Source: Lactiplantibacillus mudanjiangensis (GTDB taxonomy: Bacteria; Bacillota; Bacilli; Lactobacillales; Lactobacillaceae). From it: 64,000 nucleotides of DNA. Below are positions 3,619 through 60,364 of the stretch, one piece after another (position 1 is the stretch's first letter; each line of letters begins with the position of its first letter). The notes beneath the pieces were generated by a model, which did not search any database, was not told where the DNA came from, and saw only the letters and a list, made by a program, of their open reading frames with translations. The stretch spans positions 1 through 64,000 of the forward strand of contig NZ_BJDY01000006.1 of assembly GCF_005405385.1 (NCBI RefSeq). The letters run 5' to 3'. Both the position numbers and the translations under genes were made by a program.

Positions 3619-3645
3619 AGTGTTTACTAAACATTGATGCAGCAC

Positions 3646-4048
3646 TTGCCACCTACCGTTCGCCCACATTGAGCCGGAACGCTGTGAGCGGACTGGTCGA
3701 GCCATAGAACGGTCTCGACCATCGTTTTGAACCGCCAAACCCGCGTTTCAAAAGCGCCGGGCTCTAAGCGATAAATCGCTAAGAGCTTCCCACGGCTGAG
3801 CTCAATGTGAACTCACTCTTGGTTATAATAGTGATTACTAGGTTAACGCAGACAACTAACCGAAGTCAGGCAATGATGGCGCCGGCCGTGACGACATCGT
3901 TAGTCCGAATGTTTTTTCTGAACTTACGATGTGGACGACTTTTGAGACTAGCGGTTTTGGCTAGGCTTAAAAGCGAGGTGGAAGCCAGCTTTTCGGCTGG
4001 AACCGATCCCTACAGCCGGCAGAATCATTGGCTGACGTAGGTGACTAA
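3646..4048 (+). repeat. Intergenic structured repeat element, copy 1 (full)
   Basis: About 400 bases with no plausible gene. It shares its whole length with the copies at 7178, 12788, 21308 and 59957. The left end TTGCCACCTACCG and right end GACGTAGGTGACTAA form an imperfect terminal inverted repeat. Internal inverted repeats include CACATTGAGCC with the later GGCTCAATGTG (here one change), GGTCGAG with CTCGACC, CTCTAAGCGAT with ATCGCTAAGAG, and a right-hand arm beginning GTCAGGCAATGAT and closing ATCATTGGCTGAC. A TATAAT sits at 3824-3829 between the two arms. Conserved CTTTCAACC at 4063 extends the homology to the right. Any short frames in it are not conserved between copies. Confidence 0.85.
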
Positions 4049-4133
4049 TTTAACATAATTATCTTTCAACCTTTAGCTGTTTATCTAAATCTCATGTCTC
4101 ACCATCAACTTAATTCTTTCAATGATAAACGCA

Positions 4134-7106: not shown

Positions 7107-7177
7107 TACTTACTAAAGGTTGAAAGTTAAATGTATTGGTCAAAACCTTAGCAACATTGACTTAAGTTGGATTAAAT

Positions 7178-7584
7178 TTGTCATCTACGCCAACCAGCGA
7201 TTCTGCCGGCTGTGGAGACCGGTCCCAGCCAAAGTACGGGCTGCCACCTCGCTTTTGAGCCTAGTCAAAACCACTAGTCTCAAAAGTCGTCCATATCGTA
7301 AAGTCCGGGGAAATCACCCGGACTAACGATATTTTCACGGCCGGCGCCATCACTGGCTGACTTCGGTTATTATTCGGATGCTAATTAATTTAGCGATCAC
7401 TATTATAACCGAGAGTGAGCTCACATTGAGCCCAGCCGTGGGAGCTCTTGGCGATTTATCGCTTAGAGCTCGGCGCTTTTGAAACGCGGATTTTGCGGTT
7501 CAAAACGACGGTTCAGACTACTTTTGGACTGAACCGGTCCGCCCACAGCGTTCCGACTCAATGTGGGCGAACGGTAGGTGGCAA
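7178..7584 (-). repeat. Intergenic structured repeat element, copy 2 (full, inverted)
   Basis: Reverse-complement copy of the element at 3646. Its right end (TTGTCATCTACGCC on the plus strand) comes first and its left end (GGTAGGTGGCAA) last. Internal stems are kept: read in the element's direction the left arm has GGTTCAG with CTGAACC. The conserved flank CTTTCAACC (reverse of 7113-7126) is also present. There is no gene in this stretch. Confidence 0.85.
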
Positions 7585-7645
7585 GTAGGACTAGTTTTGA
7601 TCGATGAATGCTTATCATATCAACGATTATTGCTAAAACCTTTAG

Positions 7646-12771: not shown

Positions 12772-12787
12772 TCAAAGGTAGATCGAC

Positions 12788-13185
12788 TTGACGCCTGCCG
12801 TTCGCCCACATTGAGCCGGAACACTGTGGGCGGACCGGCCCAGCCAAAAAGCGGTCTGGACCGTCATTTTGAACCACAAAAACCGTGTTTCAAAAACGCC
12901 AAGCTCTAAGCGATAAATCGCTAAGAGCTCCCACGGATGGGCTCACTGTGGACTCACTCTCGGCTATATTAGTTACCAAATTGATTAACCTCAAATAACC
13001 GGAGCCAGCCAGTGATGGCGTTGGCCGTGAAAACATCGTTAGTTCGGGGGGGTCCCGGGCTTACGATGTGGACGACTTTTGAGACTAGCGATTTGGGCTA
13101 GGCTTAAAAGCGAGGTGGAAGCCCGATTTTTGGCTGTAACCGGTCCCCACAGCCGACAGAATCACTGGCTGGCGTAGGTGACTAA
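12788..13185 (+). repeat. Intergenic structured repeat element, copy 3 (full)
   Basis: Full-length copy running from TTGACGCCTGCCG to GCGTAGGTGACTAA. The right arm's closing stem is perfect (GCCAGCCAGTGAT with ATCACTGGCTGGC). In the left arm CACATTGAGCC now faces GGCTCACTGTG, with one mismatch, and the TATAAT of other copies is TATATT. Conserved CTTTCAACC follows at 13237. There is no gene in this stretch. Confidence 0.85.
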
Positions 13186-20442: not shown

Positions 20443-21300
20443 ATGCACCCAAAGAAATTAAAACAATTAAAAAAGCACTTAAAATCATCAACATCAGCTA
20501 AAACCAGTTACATTACTCAGATGCAACATTACCGAGAAGTCTTCAAGGACGATCCACAAATTTTGATCTTAATTAACAACGTTTTAGAAGCTGACCGTTT
20601 ACTAGCAGCAGGATTAGCACCACAGCCATTGCCGGTCTTACAAGTCCCCGATGACTTCCAAGATCAACTTTTTAAACGGATTAATGAACAATACGCCATG
20701 GGTGATCCTCGTGGTGATGCTGCTTGGAATACGTTATCGGCGGCGTTGCCAAAAGTCGATCAATTACTTCGCGACTTCCGTGATTACATCGAAGACCAAT
20801 ATGGCATGTGGGCCTACATTAGCGCCCCATTTCTAAAAGACCTCGCCGACAACCTCGGTAATGGTCCAGTCCTCGAAGTGATGGCGGGTAATGGTTATAT
20901 CTCTAAAGGCCTCAAACGCCTGCATCCAACGCAAACGGTGATCACCACTGATTCTAAAGCTTGGACGAAAGAAAACGGCAATCAAACCGGGAAACAACCG
21001 GTCACGGCGATTGAAACGTTAGATGCCGTCAATGCCTTTCAGAAGTACGCCGCTGACCTGGATTACGTCATCATGGCCTGGTCGCCAGATAAGTTAACGA
21101 TTGATTGGGACTTGCTTCAAGCAATGCGAGCTAGTGAGGTCGATGTGCCATTAATCTGCATTGGCGAAAAATACGGCGCGACCGGCTCCAAAGCCTTTTG
21201 GGATCACGCCGAGTATCAAGATGGTCCCCTCGTTGAAAAACTCAACGCGCACTACCGACCATTTGATCTCATTCATGATCAAGTTTATGTCATAAAATAA
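20443..21300 (+). CDS. SAM-dependent methyltransferase-like protein
   Basis: 285 residues. The first 110 residues are helical and charged. From about residue 140 a Rossmann methyltransferase core is visible: GPVLEVMAGNGYISKGL (SAM-binding motif I with E-x-M-x-G-x-G), VITTDSKAW (acidic residue of motif II) and DYVIMAWSPD (motif IV position). AGGAGG is ideally placed before the ATG. The substrate cannot be inferred. It is translationally close to the XRE regulator. Confidence 0.75.
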   Translation: MHPKKLKQLKKHLKSSTSAKTSYITQMQHYREVFKDDPQILILINNVLEADRLLAAGLAPQPLPVLQVPDDFQDQLFKRINEQYAMGDPRGDAAWNTLSAALPKVDQLLRDFRDYIEDQYGMWAYISAPFLKDLADNLGNGPVLEVMAGNGYISKGLKRLHPTQTVITTDSKAWTKENGNQTGKQPVTAIETLDAVNAFQKYAADLDYVIMAWSPDKLTIDWDLLQAMRASEVDVPLICIGEKYGATGSKAFWDHAEYQDGPLVEKLNAHYRPFDLIHDQVYVIK

Positions 21301-21307
21301 ACCTAAC

Positions 21308-21707
21308 TTGCCGCCTACCGTTCGCCCACATTGAGCCGGAACGCTATGGATAGACCGGCTAAGCCAAAGAACGGTCTTAGCCGTCGTTTTGAACCGCCAA
21401 ACCCGCGTTTCAAAAGCGCCAGACTCTAAGCGATAAAACCGCTAAGAGTCCCATGGCTGGGCTCAATGTGGACTCACTCTCGGCTATAATGGTTATTTAC
21501 GCAATGAGTACGTATAACCGAAGCCAGCCAGTGATGGCGCCCGCTGTGAAAACATCGTAAAGTCCGGATGGCTTTGCCGGACTTTACGATGTGGACGACT
21601 TAAGAGACTAGTGATTTTTGCTAGGCTCTTAAGCGAGGTTGAAGCCTGATTTTTAGGCTGAAACCGGTCCCCCAGCCGGCAGAATCATTGGCTGGCGAAG
21701 GTGGCCA
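21308..21707 (+). repeat. Intergenic structured repeat element, copy 4 (full)
   Basis: Full copy from TTGCCGCCTACCG to GCGAAGGTGGCCAA. This is the most divergent full copy, yet its stems remain paired. GGCTAAG (21357-21363) faces CTTAGCC (21376-21382). CTTAAGAG (21599-21606) faces CTCTTAAG (21626-21633). CATCGTAAAGTCCGG faces CCGGACTTTACGATG. No gene lies here. Confidence 0.85.
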
Positions 21708-21724
21708 ATTCAGAGCTATTAACT

Positions 21725-21767: not shown

Positions 21768-22355
21768 TTAAGCTAGTGGATCATGCTGATGGGCTAGATG
21801 ATAGGCGTAGCCAGTGGAGACGGCAATGACTATCGCTATAAATATCAAAATTGGTATCGGCGTTAGGTTGGCGTTTAAATAACTAAACCCAATCATCAAC
21901 CAGCCACTCGCAACTAATAACCAACCACCAAGTACATTGGTTTTATGCCAAATGATGGGCGACTGCAGTGTCCAAACGATACGAATGCCTAAGACATGAT
22001 TTGGCAACGTATCAACACATAAAACACCGACAACGCCAAATAACAAACCGACGATGACGGCCACCGTATTTTGCAAATGCCACACCCCTGGTAATAAAAT
22101 CGCTAACCAGCTGTAACTAAACCAGGCAATCGCCCAGTGACTTGCCACTTGCCAGGCTGACCACTGTAATACTGGCGCTAAAGCAAACGGCAACACTAAC
22201 GATAAACTATAAATCACCGTTATGGGTAATAGGATCGTTGGAGACACGATTAACTTAACCGATTGTGACAATGGCAACCACAGCCAGATTAATCCTAATA
22301 AATTGCAACCAGTTGCCCCTAACGCCCACCAACGTTGCTTTTCAACTGTTGACAT
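21768..22355 (-). CDS. SdpI-family membrane protein
   Basis: 195 residues with about six membrane helices. The segment LPNHVLGIRIVWTLQSPIIWHKTNVLGG is close to the conserved NxxxGIRTPWTLxSxxxWxxTHRLGG pattern of the SdpI immunity/signal-transduction family. B. subtilis SdpI protects against the SdpC toxin and sequesters the repressor SdpR. Here no SdpC-like gene or ArsR repressor is adjacent, so an immunity role is only suggested. The ATG at 22355 was preferred over the GTG at 22367 because of the upstream GGTGAG. It follows a second membrane-protein gene closely. Confidence 0.75.
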   Translation of the reverse strand: MSTVEKQRWWALGATGCNLLGLIWLWLPLSQSVKLIVSPTILLPITVIYSLSLVLPFALAPVLQWSAWQVASHWAIAWFSYSWLAILLPGVWHLQNTVAVIVGLLFGVVGVLCVDTLPNHVLGIRIVWTLQSPIIWHKTNVLGGWLLVASGWLMIGFSYLNANLTPIPILIFIAIVIAVSTGYAYHLAHQHDPLA

Positions 22356-22370
22356 TTTTCTCACCACTTT

Positions 22371-23408: not shown

Positions 23409-23643
23409 ACTCTTGGTTAAACTGGTAACCACTAAATTGACCGACAATATAATCGGAGTCAGCCAGTGATGGCGCCGGCCGTGAAAACAGCGTTAGTCCG
23501 GATGATTTGTTCCGGACTTACGCTGTGGACGACTTTTGAGACTAGCGGTTTTGGCTAGGCACAAAAGCGAGGTGGAAGCCCGCACTTTGGGCTGAAGCCG
23601 GTCCCCACAGCCGGCAGAATCACTGGCTGGCGTAGGTGACCAA
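23409..23643 (+). repeat. Intergenic structured repeat element, copy 5 (right arm only)
   Basis: Only the right half of the element is present: GTCAGCCAGTGATGGCGCC through ATCACTGGCTGGCGTAGGTGACCAA. The closing stem, the CAGCGTTAGTCCGG/CCGGACTTACGCTG hairpin and the CTTTTGAG/CACAAAAG arm are kept. Everything to the left of the junction is unrelated sequence. Confidence 0.8.
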
Positions 23644-29670: not shown

Positions 29671-29701
29671 AGTTTAGACCTTCATCTGTACTTCAAGGCA
29701 A
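29671..29701 (-). promoter_or_regulatory. MerR-type promoter of the MFS gene
   Basis: On the minus strand TTGCCT and TAAACT are 19 bases apart, with the imperfect dyad CCTTGAAGTACAGATGAAGG in and around the spacer. Confidence 0.65.
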
Positions 29702-29725
29702 GGGATTATTTTCATTTTTTTACAA

Positions 29726-29757
29726 AAAAAGTTGCCGACACTTGGTCGACAACTTCA
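29726..29757 (-). terminator. Intrinsic terminator of the gene at 29767
   Basis: On the minus strand AAGTTGTCGAC pairs with GTCGGCAACTT, followed by TTTTTTT. Confidence 0.8.
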
Positions 29758-31625: not shown

Positions 31626-31656
31626 AGCCTAAACCTTCATGTGTACTTCAAGGCAA
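31626..31656 (-). promoter_or_regulatory. MerR-type promoter of the NAD(P)-binding/MerR operon
   Basis: On the minus strand TTGCCT and TAGGCT are 19 bases apart. The dyad CCTTCATGTGTACTTCAAGG (31634-31653) differs from that of the MFS promoter by only a few bases. Confidence 0.65.
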
Positions 31657-31675
31657 GAGAAAATTTCCAATTCAA

Positions 31676-31707
31676 TAAAAAAACGGTCGATCCAACTACG
31701 ATCAACC
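31676..31707 (-). terminator. Intrinsic terminator of the gene at 31716
   Basis: On the minus strand CGGTTGATC pairs with GATCGACCG, followed by TTTTTTT. Confidence 0.8.
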
Positions 31708-39710: not shown

Positions 39711-39916
39711 AAAAAAAGATGCGTCAACTGTTAAAAACAGTCAACGCATCTCTTCCGCAGTACTAGGTTGCCCTAGTGGGGTGATGTGTTCCACAACATC
39801 AGAGACCCAAGCATTCCGCAAATCCGTCGGAAAATCATGCCCTGCTATCAATTAAGTCACTAGCCGCTCGCGCGGAACCATCATCACTGATGATCTGACT
39901 CTATCGACTCATCGCA
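39711..39916 (-). ncRNA. Candidate structured RNA with own promoter and terminator
   Basis: On the minus strand TTGCAT and TAGAGT are 17 bases apart (39951-39923), predicting a start near 39916. About 200 bases later a terminator pairs GATGCGTTGACTG with CAGTTGACGCATC, followed by seven T (39711-39717). Between them nested long-range stems can form: TTCCGC (39877-39872) with GCGGAA (39758-39753), inside them CTAGTG (39863-39858) with CACTAG (39778-39773), plus two internal hairpins (GATGT/ACATC and TTCCG/CGGAA). No open frame of note. It could be an independent RNA or a leader of the gene at 39277. I matched it to no known riboswitch motif. Confidence 0.55.
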
Positions 39917-59927: not shown

Positions 59928-59956
59928 TAAGCCTTTTTGGATCGAATTAGCTCGAC

Positions 59957-60364
59957 TTGCCACCTTCCGTTCTCCCACCTTGAGCCGGAACGCTGTGGGT
60001 GGACCGGTTCAGCCAAAAAGCGGTCTGAACCGTCGTTTTGAACCGCAAAATCCGCGTTTCAAAAACGCCGATCTCTAAGCGATAAATCGCCAAGAGCTCC
60101 CACGGCTGGGCTCAATGTGAGCTCACTCTCGGTTATAATGGTGATTACGAAATTGATTGATATTCGCAATAAAACCGGAGTCAGCCAGTGATGGCGCCGG
60201 CCGTGACAACATCGTTAGTCCGGCTGTTTTTTCCGGGCTTTACGATATGGACGACTTTTGAGACTAGCGGTTTGGGCTAGGCTCAAAAGCGAGGTGGCAG
60301 CCCGCACTTTGGCTGGAGCCGGTCCCCACAGCCGGCAGAATCACTGGCTGACGTAGGTGACTAT
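59957..60364 (+). repeat. Intergenic structured repeat element, copy 7 (full)
   Basis: Full copy from TTGCCACCTTCCG to GACGTAGGTGACTA. Its stems are the most regular of all copies: GGTTCAG (60006-60012) with CTGAACC (60025-60031), CTTTTGAG (60255-60262) with CTCAAAAG (60282-60289), GTCAGCCAGTGAT with ATCACTGGCTGAC. TATAAT lies between the arms. CTTTCAATC at 60414 matches the conserved right flank. Confidence 0.85.

Follow-up and report, generated by a model that had tools for sequence, protein, structure and literature searches.

What is the repeat at positions 21308-21707 of the window (the whole stretch of DNA analysed here, 64,000 nucleotides), and what keeps its stems paired while their letters change from copy to copy? 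An earlier note, made from the sequence alone, read these changes as compensatory and suggested a functional RNA, or a DNA hairpin recognised by a protein such as a transposase.

The repeat and its copies

Positions 21308-21707 hold one copy of a repeat that is dispersed over the genome. The core of this copy, by its blastn boundaries, extends over 21306-21713 (+) and consists of two inward-facing folded domains with a short centre. The core begins 5 nt past the stop codon of the left-hand gene (20443-21300), the gene at 21768-22367 is convergent toward it, and no ORF of at least 80 aa was found on either strand of this window copy. By blastn, further two-domain copies lie at 3644-4050 (+; its right domain scores below the threshold of the covariance model R1), 7175-7586 (inverted, -), 12786-13180 (+) and 59955-60359 (+), and a copy with the right domain only, also seen by R1, lies at 23448-23643 (+). 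The window total is six copies, of which five have both domains and the sixth has only the right domain; the earlier note numbered up to seven.

The repeat is abundant in the genome that contains the window (G000, 3.29 Mb). Allowing up to 3 mismatches, a 25-mer occurs at 100 places there, 43 forward and 57 reverse (control 0), of which 96 are outside the window and 60 of these 96 were retrieved by place. At a score of at least 98.7 bits, R1 finds no fewer than 145 left domains, and mean identity among the 49 full copies of G000 is 85%.

The window has other repeats as well. Positions 1-216 hold 24-nt tandem repeats (AAACCTGGCACCACTGAGCCTGAA and relatives), which I would guess to be part of a surface-protein repeat region cut by the window edge, and a 54-nt direct repeat, 80% identical, occurs at 29675-29728 and 31630-31683, about 2 kb apart.

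The folded domain

In the 21306-21713 copy the left domain occupies 21323-21474 (R1 match on the + strand, 168.6 bits; the functional strand is probably -, outward from the centre) and the right domain 21522-21697 (R1 match on the - strand, 26.7 bits, E 6e-4 / 1.2e-3; the functional strand is probably +). The 47-nt centre between them, 21475-21521, holds a TATAAT-like stem; among the inward-facing neighbours measured, its length ranges from 26 to 682 nt. The right domain is an inverted homologue of the left: R1 finds the right half on the opposite strand in five of the six window copies, at 21522-21697, 60179-60353, 13003-13174 and 23457-23632 (all -) and at 7188-7362 (+).

Each domain, present once or twice per element, is a branched structure of about 150-175 nt in which three hairpins are enclosed by two stems; the five helices of the left domain are the closing stems P2 and P3 and the hairpins P4, P5 and P6. 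The single-copy fold of the window copy 21306-21713 reaches -185.5 kcal/mol over 405 aligned nt. Best conserved across genera are the bulge and loop of P4 (21357-21382), AGCCAAA..GCGGTCT, and the conserved letters in P3 and the P4 loop read GCtgtGggG..CGg....AGCCaaa..gCGGTCT....cCTCG. The P4 bulge and the P5 and P6 mismatches are kept within otherwise perfect stems, as invariant or near-invariant columns of a 32-copy alignment.

Of 73 neighbouring domain pairs no more than 700 nt apart, 69 are inward-facing and four tandem; among the inward-facing pairs, at least three (L192, L221 and L243) belong to separate single-domain elements by their ends. A wrong-strand duplicate match (window 59972-60123, -) is excluded from this count and from the orientation and left/right wobble counts below. 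One domain only was present at 12 of the 16 G000 loci checked for a second. Companilactobacillus huachuanensis has compact units of 317-321 nt (L194 3799-4117, L221 3709-4025, L243 6025-6344, L251 54-372 and L192 2839-3159), each with one domain between the same 14-bp ends that are described below, and with 7-9 bp duplications.

Compensatory changes

Direct reading confirms the paired stems on which the first impression was built: GGTCGAG (3695-3701) opposite CTCGACC (3714-3720), GGCTAAG (21357-21363) opposite CTTAGCC (21376-21382) in the 21308 copy, and, in the right arm of the same copy, CTTAAGAG (21599-21606) opposite CTCTTAAG (21626-21633). That stems vary while staying paired goes beyond chance, and the effect is larger than these examples conveyed. 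When 32 left domains are aligned by MAFFT without regard to structure (A1), 95.8% of the 1436 cells are paired, with changes on both sides in 15 of 45 pairs (0-4 in controls with the 3' partner slid) and 58 double-change cells (0-5 in the slid controls). Larger sets give double changes in 45 of 45 pairs, with 93.3% of cells paired and a covariation score of 0.682 (slid controls at most 0.092), among 97 domains (A3), and in 42 of 45 pairs, with 92.3% paired and a score of 0.665 (slid controls at most 0.106), among 150 domains from scans, the best 150 of 166 matches (A4). Both of these alignments are fitted to the model structure, and therefore single sequences, including 80 of the 150 rows of A4, were also folded without the model. 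These folds recovered 87-92% of the model pairs, with mean z from -7.35 to -8.72 on either strand, and z on the outward strand was below -2 in 80 of 80 and 64 of 64 cases.

Covariation above the tree background, which the earlier note proposed as the check, was sought among the 49 full G000 copies against a tree-based G-test null (R-scape-like, of my own construction), and no column pair was significant at E<=0.05. The top five pairs in that ranking are complementary columns of predicted stems, with a mixed list below them.

Since stem letters are replaced between species with pairing kept, the fold itself must matter, and selection on the fold of the inverted two-domain core is strongly supported. 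The stems are rewritten between genera with the pairing retained, and the earlier note's view that these are not passive repeats is supported. Gene conversion, named from the start as another possible source of the paired changes, is unlikely because stem sequences differ by genus and the conserved bulges and mismatches persist. A broader account would dispense with selection altogether and let hairpin-directed template switching or gene conversion keep the stems perfect mechanically. The left domain is indeed compensated with few wobble intermediates, and the many copies per genome could exchange sequence; however, such correction would remove the conserved bulge of P4 and the mismatches of P5 and P6, and the loop motifs are conserved across genera whereas the stems are not. 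I consider this account very improbable, and the counts of broken pairs given in the next section also speak against it.

Ends and mobility

Many copies are flanked, outside the folded core, by 14-bp inverted ends, CTAAAGGTTGAAAG/CTTTCAACCTTTAG. The 3644 copy has an exact terminal inverted repeat at 4063-4076 (-, CTTTCAACCTTTAG read on +), and another exact one lies beside the 7175-7586 copy at 7113-7126 (+, CTAAAGGTTGAAAG). With up to 2 mismatches, CTAAAGGTTGAAAG stands at both ends of 28 G000 units, 23 of them 500-547 nt long. Target duplications of 7-9 bp accompany 23 of these 28 end pairs; in G020 the figure is 9 of 12, and other genera give 8 of 17, the chance level being 5 in 5000 random stretches.

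The sister species G008 carries a 1565-bp insertion sequence (L129 1235-2799) with exactly the same ends on both sides. It encodes a 451-aa transposase that matches the IS4 family model NF049925 at 481.6 bits (cut-off 250) and in which YGRRWQIECYFKVAK shows, by eye, the YREK signature with Y-2-R-3-E-6-K spacing. It is inserted in a broken gene, with at most 5 bp of matching flank (by eye). This transposase has matches in seven of 21 genomes, several of them fragments or broken copies, and in G000 there are fragments only. Many copies of the repeat are MITEs of an IS4-family (ISPepr1-like) insertion sequence. As a separate observation, several contigs of G008 and G018 start less than 100 nt from a 14-bp end, as if a longer identical repeat had broken the assembly.

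Not every copy has such ends. Sorting was possible for 46 of the 49 full copies (L010, L028 and L024 could not be located and were left out), and 11 of the 46 have no end within 3 mismatches, including the 21308 copy, which belongs to the TIR class 'none' with no recognisable terminal repeat. Among the 20 copies that have both ends, the left domain shows 65 helix substitutions; 29 of its pairs are broken where 39 would be expected, and 12 are compensated where 1 would be; the 15 with one end have 75, with 34 broken (53 expected) and 17 compensated (1.7 expected); and the 11 without ends have 102, with 16 broken (66 expected) and 42 compensated (4.2 expected). Broken pairs of the right domain number 25 (56 expected) with both ends, 16 (40) with one end and 18 (58) with none, and its fold is retained in every end class. 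In the left domain, broken pairs are fewest relative to expectation in the endless copies, so copies that are immobile by these ends keep the fold equally well or better; either they are selected in place, or they descend from older lineages that have lost their ends. The shortfall of broken left-domain pairs both with two ends and with none, and the right-domain fold kept in all end classes, are what weigh against stems kept perfect by mechanical correction.

The idea that the fold exists as a hairpin for a transposase to recognise is not supported, because separate IS4-type ends and 7-9 bp duplications lie outside the core and because the endless copies keep the left-domain fold best. A particular version would be a REPIN-like system in which a Y1 (RAYT) transposase acts on folded DNA, and inverted pairs of folded units, intergenic and with many diverged copies per chromosome, are what such a system would have. 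The ends and target duplications are of the DDE type, however. By an overlap count made by eye, PF01797 (Y1) occurs in 33 of 71 carriers vs 43 of 180 non-carriers, and the 38 carriers that lack it include G008 (92 R1 matches) and G014 (71). As carriers do not require PF01797, Y1/RAYT was rejected as the mover; this version is mostly refuted and I give it almost no credence.

Distribution

At E<=1e-3, R1 has matches in 17 of 21 genomes of the genus, up to 129 in one sister, the genomes without being G001, G002, G013 and G019. A broader model, R2, built from 97 domains, matches G013 and neither G001 nor G002 (G019 is absent from the R2 table). In a survey of 251 genomes of the family, with at most 11 places scored per genome, R2 has matches in 71 genomes and 13 of 40 genera. 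A pattern scan of named genomes gave at least 80 loci. Among the matches listed, these are from lactobacilli (Levilactobacillus including L. brevis, Companilactobacillus, Lactiplantibacillus, Secundilactobacillus and Lactobacillus sp. records) except one Paenibacillus and one Rikenellaceae record, neither of which R2 matches. R2 was run on 79 of the 80 loci listed (L208, 174 nt, was left out), and 40 of the 79 entered two of the analyses.

Rfam 15 at gathering scores places no family on the element in the window, where its sole match is the Ref68 / Lacto-3 sRNA (RF02840) at 39786-39916 (-, 84.6 bits), and at E<=1 the element stays unmatched in the loci L107, L261, L216 and L203. With blastn, neither the window copy nor a copy from L. 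brevis has a match in plasmid and phage collections; as a control, the L. brevis query recovers the other five L. brevis loci tested with E below 1e-17 at the size of the plasmid database. Among the papers listed by full-text literature searches, none is on this repeat, judged by titles and opening lines of abstracts. L. johnsonii is the only lactobacillus named in the part of the survey PMC2267715 used here.

Do these copies sit at inherited sites? Outside the orthology set, three sites in sister genomes (L101, L088 and L031) share the genes on both sides with copies in G000, and matches of one flanking gene extend into other genera. A rough estimate gives an expectation of about one to three shared sites, so vertical retention of sites is not claimed. 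At the site of the 21308 copy, the element is absent in the nearest species, G006, and present by the same gene in G017, G009 and G008. Proteins that recur beside domains form clusters of up to 12. In Levilactobacillus cerevisiae (L225) a domain pair adjoins a 53%-identity homologue of the gene 20443-21300, which may be chance, and in G002, which has no R1 or R2 match, the homologue of that gene (L127) has seven in-frame stops.

Gene context

The earlier note also saw a TATAAT between the two arms in most copies. This is true of the window, where four of the five two-domain copies have it, but not of the genome, where it is found in 7 of 49 full copies and TATGAT takes its position in 16 of 49. 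The hexamer lies in a stem, CGGTTAT / ATAACCG, and a promoter scan of the centre found nothing above shuffles (chance level), so TATAAT as a promoter is not supported by that scan.

By a crude ORF caller, 64 G000 copies lie between convergent genes in 32 cases, co-directional genes in 27 and divergent genes in five, and in several copies the host genes come within 5-15 nt of the core. Such contexts invite the reading of the element as a two-way transcription terminator, or as a protector of mRNA 3' ends between convergent genes like a large BIME, and two inverted domains would suit traffic from both sides. However, no terminator or U-run was seen by eye after the domains, the same contexts are expected if promoter-proximal insertions were simply lost, and the wobble asymmetry described below does not track gene direction. 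Domains without a detected partner between co-directional genes likewise have no orientation preference, 21 same vs 23 opposite, where 'single' means that no second domain was detected within 800 nt and includes some two-domain copies whose partner went undetected (window 3661 and several G020 units). I regard the terminator reading as improbable, and a cis-acting UTR role was rejected for want of an orientation effect.

The domain would act independently of the direction of its neighbour genes, so that a transcript of its own, or a role serving the element, is likelier than being part of a host mRNA. It probably acts in trans.

RNA or DNA

The main rival to an RNA-type domain is a DNA hairpin: the domains would act as DNA, by hairpin or cruciform extrusion or as a single-stranded fold in replication, bound by a protein of mobility or chromosome upkeep. 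Between 89 and 94% of model cells are Watson-Crick with few G.T, which suits DNA, as do the promoter scan of the centre at chance level, the domains' lack of gene-orientation preference, and the window and L. brevis queries that met no plasmid or phage match with a positive control. Fold energy is lower on the outward strand in 123 cases vs 18, a difference that is compositional because the z-scores hardly differ between strands (-7.73 outward vs -7.35, and -8.72 vs -8.71); these near-equal values also favour DNA.

In A4 cell counts, G.T and A.C are both rare (133 and 230). Their like rarity suggests pairing at the DNA level, a reading that was rejected as proof because separating shared states from single-copy ones changes the picture. 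Singleton wobbles in G000 are about even, with G.T:A.C at 10:15 in the left domain and 12:16 in the right. For states common to at least three G000 copies, the ratio G.U:A.C, read outward, is 5:0 in the left domain and, in the right, 10:1 for pairs predicted on +, with 1:3 for those predicted on the other strand and 1:0 for those predicted on both. Shared states on the outward strand come to 19:3 in A4 and 9:4 in the A3 sisters; A4 singletons run opposite, at 15:31, and A4 by cells is only 230:133. The control, RNase P RNA of the same genus, has 10:0 for shared states (4:0 for pairs predicted on both strands). By cells, RNase P gives 28:2 and 17 tRNAs 14:0, and the G.U excess in the domains is weaker.

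Trained on the outward strand, a model scores above one from the same training set read inward at 33 of the 50 sites in sisters, with 16 lower, and at 64 of 84 paired sites of other genera, with 19 lower; L233 1641-1775, an R1 match without an R3 match, was left out of these pairs, and R3-only matches were not paired. The wobble asymmetry is independent of the direction of host genes.

Shared wobble pairs are tolerated mainly on the outward strand, in an RNA-like manner that is less clean than in RNase P. A DNA cruciform should be symmetric, and the shared states are one-sided, mostly outward, which speaks against it. Action as DNA is rather unlikely overall; a strand-specific single-stranded DNA fold is a variant compatible with one-sided wobbles and stays among the candidates. 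Chances are a little better than even that RNA is the selected molecule. Thus, of the original suggestion of a functional RNA or a DNA hairpin that is no passive repeat, selection on the fold stands, the choice between RNA and DNA is only partly resolved, with RNA favoured, and recognition by a transposase as the reason for the fold is not supported.

Discussion

What, then, ties together a large conserved fold and the ends of a transposon? The repeat would be a miniature transposable element family, present in many Lactobacillaceae, whose members are moved in trans by a transposase, presumably by cut and paste, and carry a domain that is probably selected as a single-stranded fold on the outward strand, most likely as RNA. 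An RNA-type folded domain carried by an IS4-ended DNA transposon is the best explanation, and taken whole it has about an even chance of being right. More tentatively, the domains may form a new class of structured RNA that is the payload of DNA transposons across a bacterial family, with one or two outward-read domains per element. Such an RNA would act in trans; it might be a partner in IS4-type transposition, or a regulator of the host made mobile by acquired IS4 ends. One genome of this family, which is well studied for food and probiotics, has at least 145 copies, and no Rfam family was matched; if the domain is RNA this is a new abundant RNA class, and if DNA, a new kind of structured mobile DNA.

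Among known systems, REPINs and BIMEs are inverted pairs of folded REP sequences, intergenic, often at gene ends, numerous per chromosome and associated with RAYT. The element resembles them in also being inverted folded pairs, intergenic, often at gene ends and many per chromosome. It differs in its unit, about 150-175 nt with several hairpins where a REPIN has a single short one, in its IS4-type ends, and in that the Y1 gene is missing in over half of the carriers.

Large ornate bacterial RNAs such as GOLLD, ROOL, HEARO and similar Rfam families have a large branched fold, heavy covariation and conserved loops. The element shares its branched fold, covariation and conserved loops with these RNAs, but it has no Rfam match, is carried by a DNA transposon and exceeds 100 copies in one genome. 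MITEs, for their part, are usually seen as empty shells, whereas the shell here carries a large fold that has been kept long enough for its stems to be rewritten between genera.

Closest by its ends is the ISPepr1 subgroup of IS4, whose members, in the part of PMC2266710 used here, are 1500-1600 bp long with ends YT-AA-YTT---A and 7-8 bp duplications. The L129 insertion sequence is like them in its length of 1565 bp, its start with CT, its YREK spacing and the 7-9 bp duplications of its relatives, and it agrees with the end consensus given in that part of the paper except at one position. The same part of the account does not mention a folded payload, and the L129 insertion sequence itself, by eye, has no such domain between its ends and its gene. 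It is in this that the MITEs differ from IS4/ISPepr1: one or two folded domains, large and conserved, lie between their ends.
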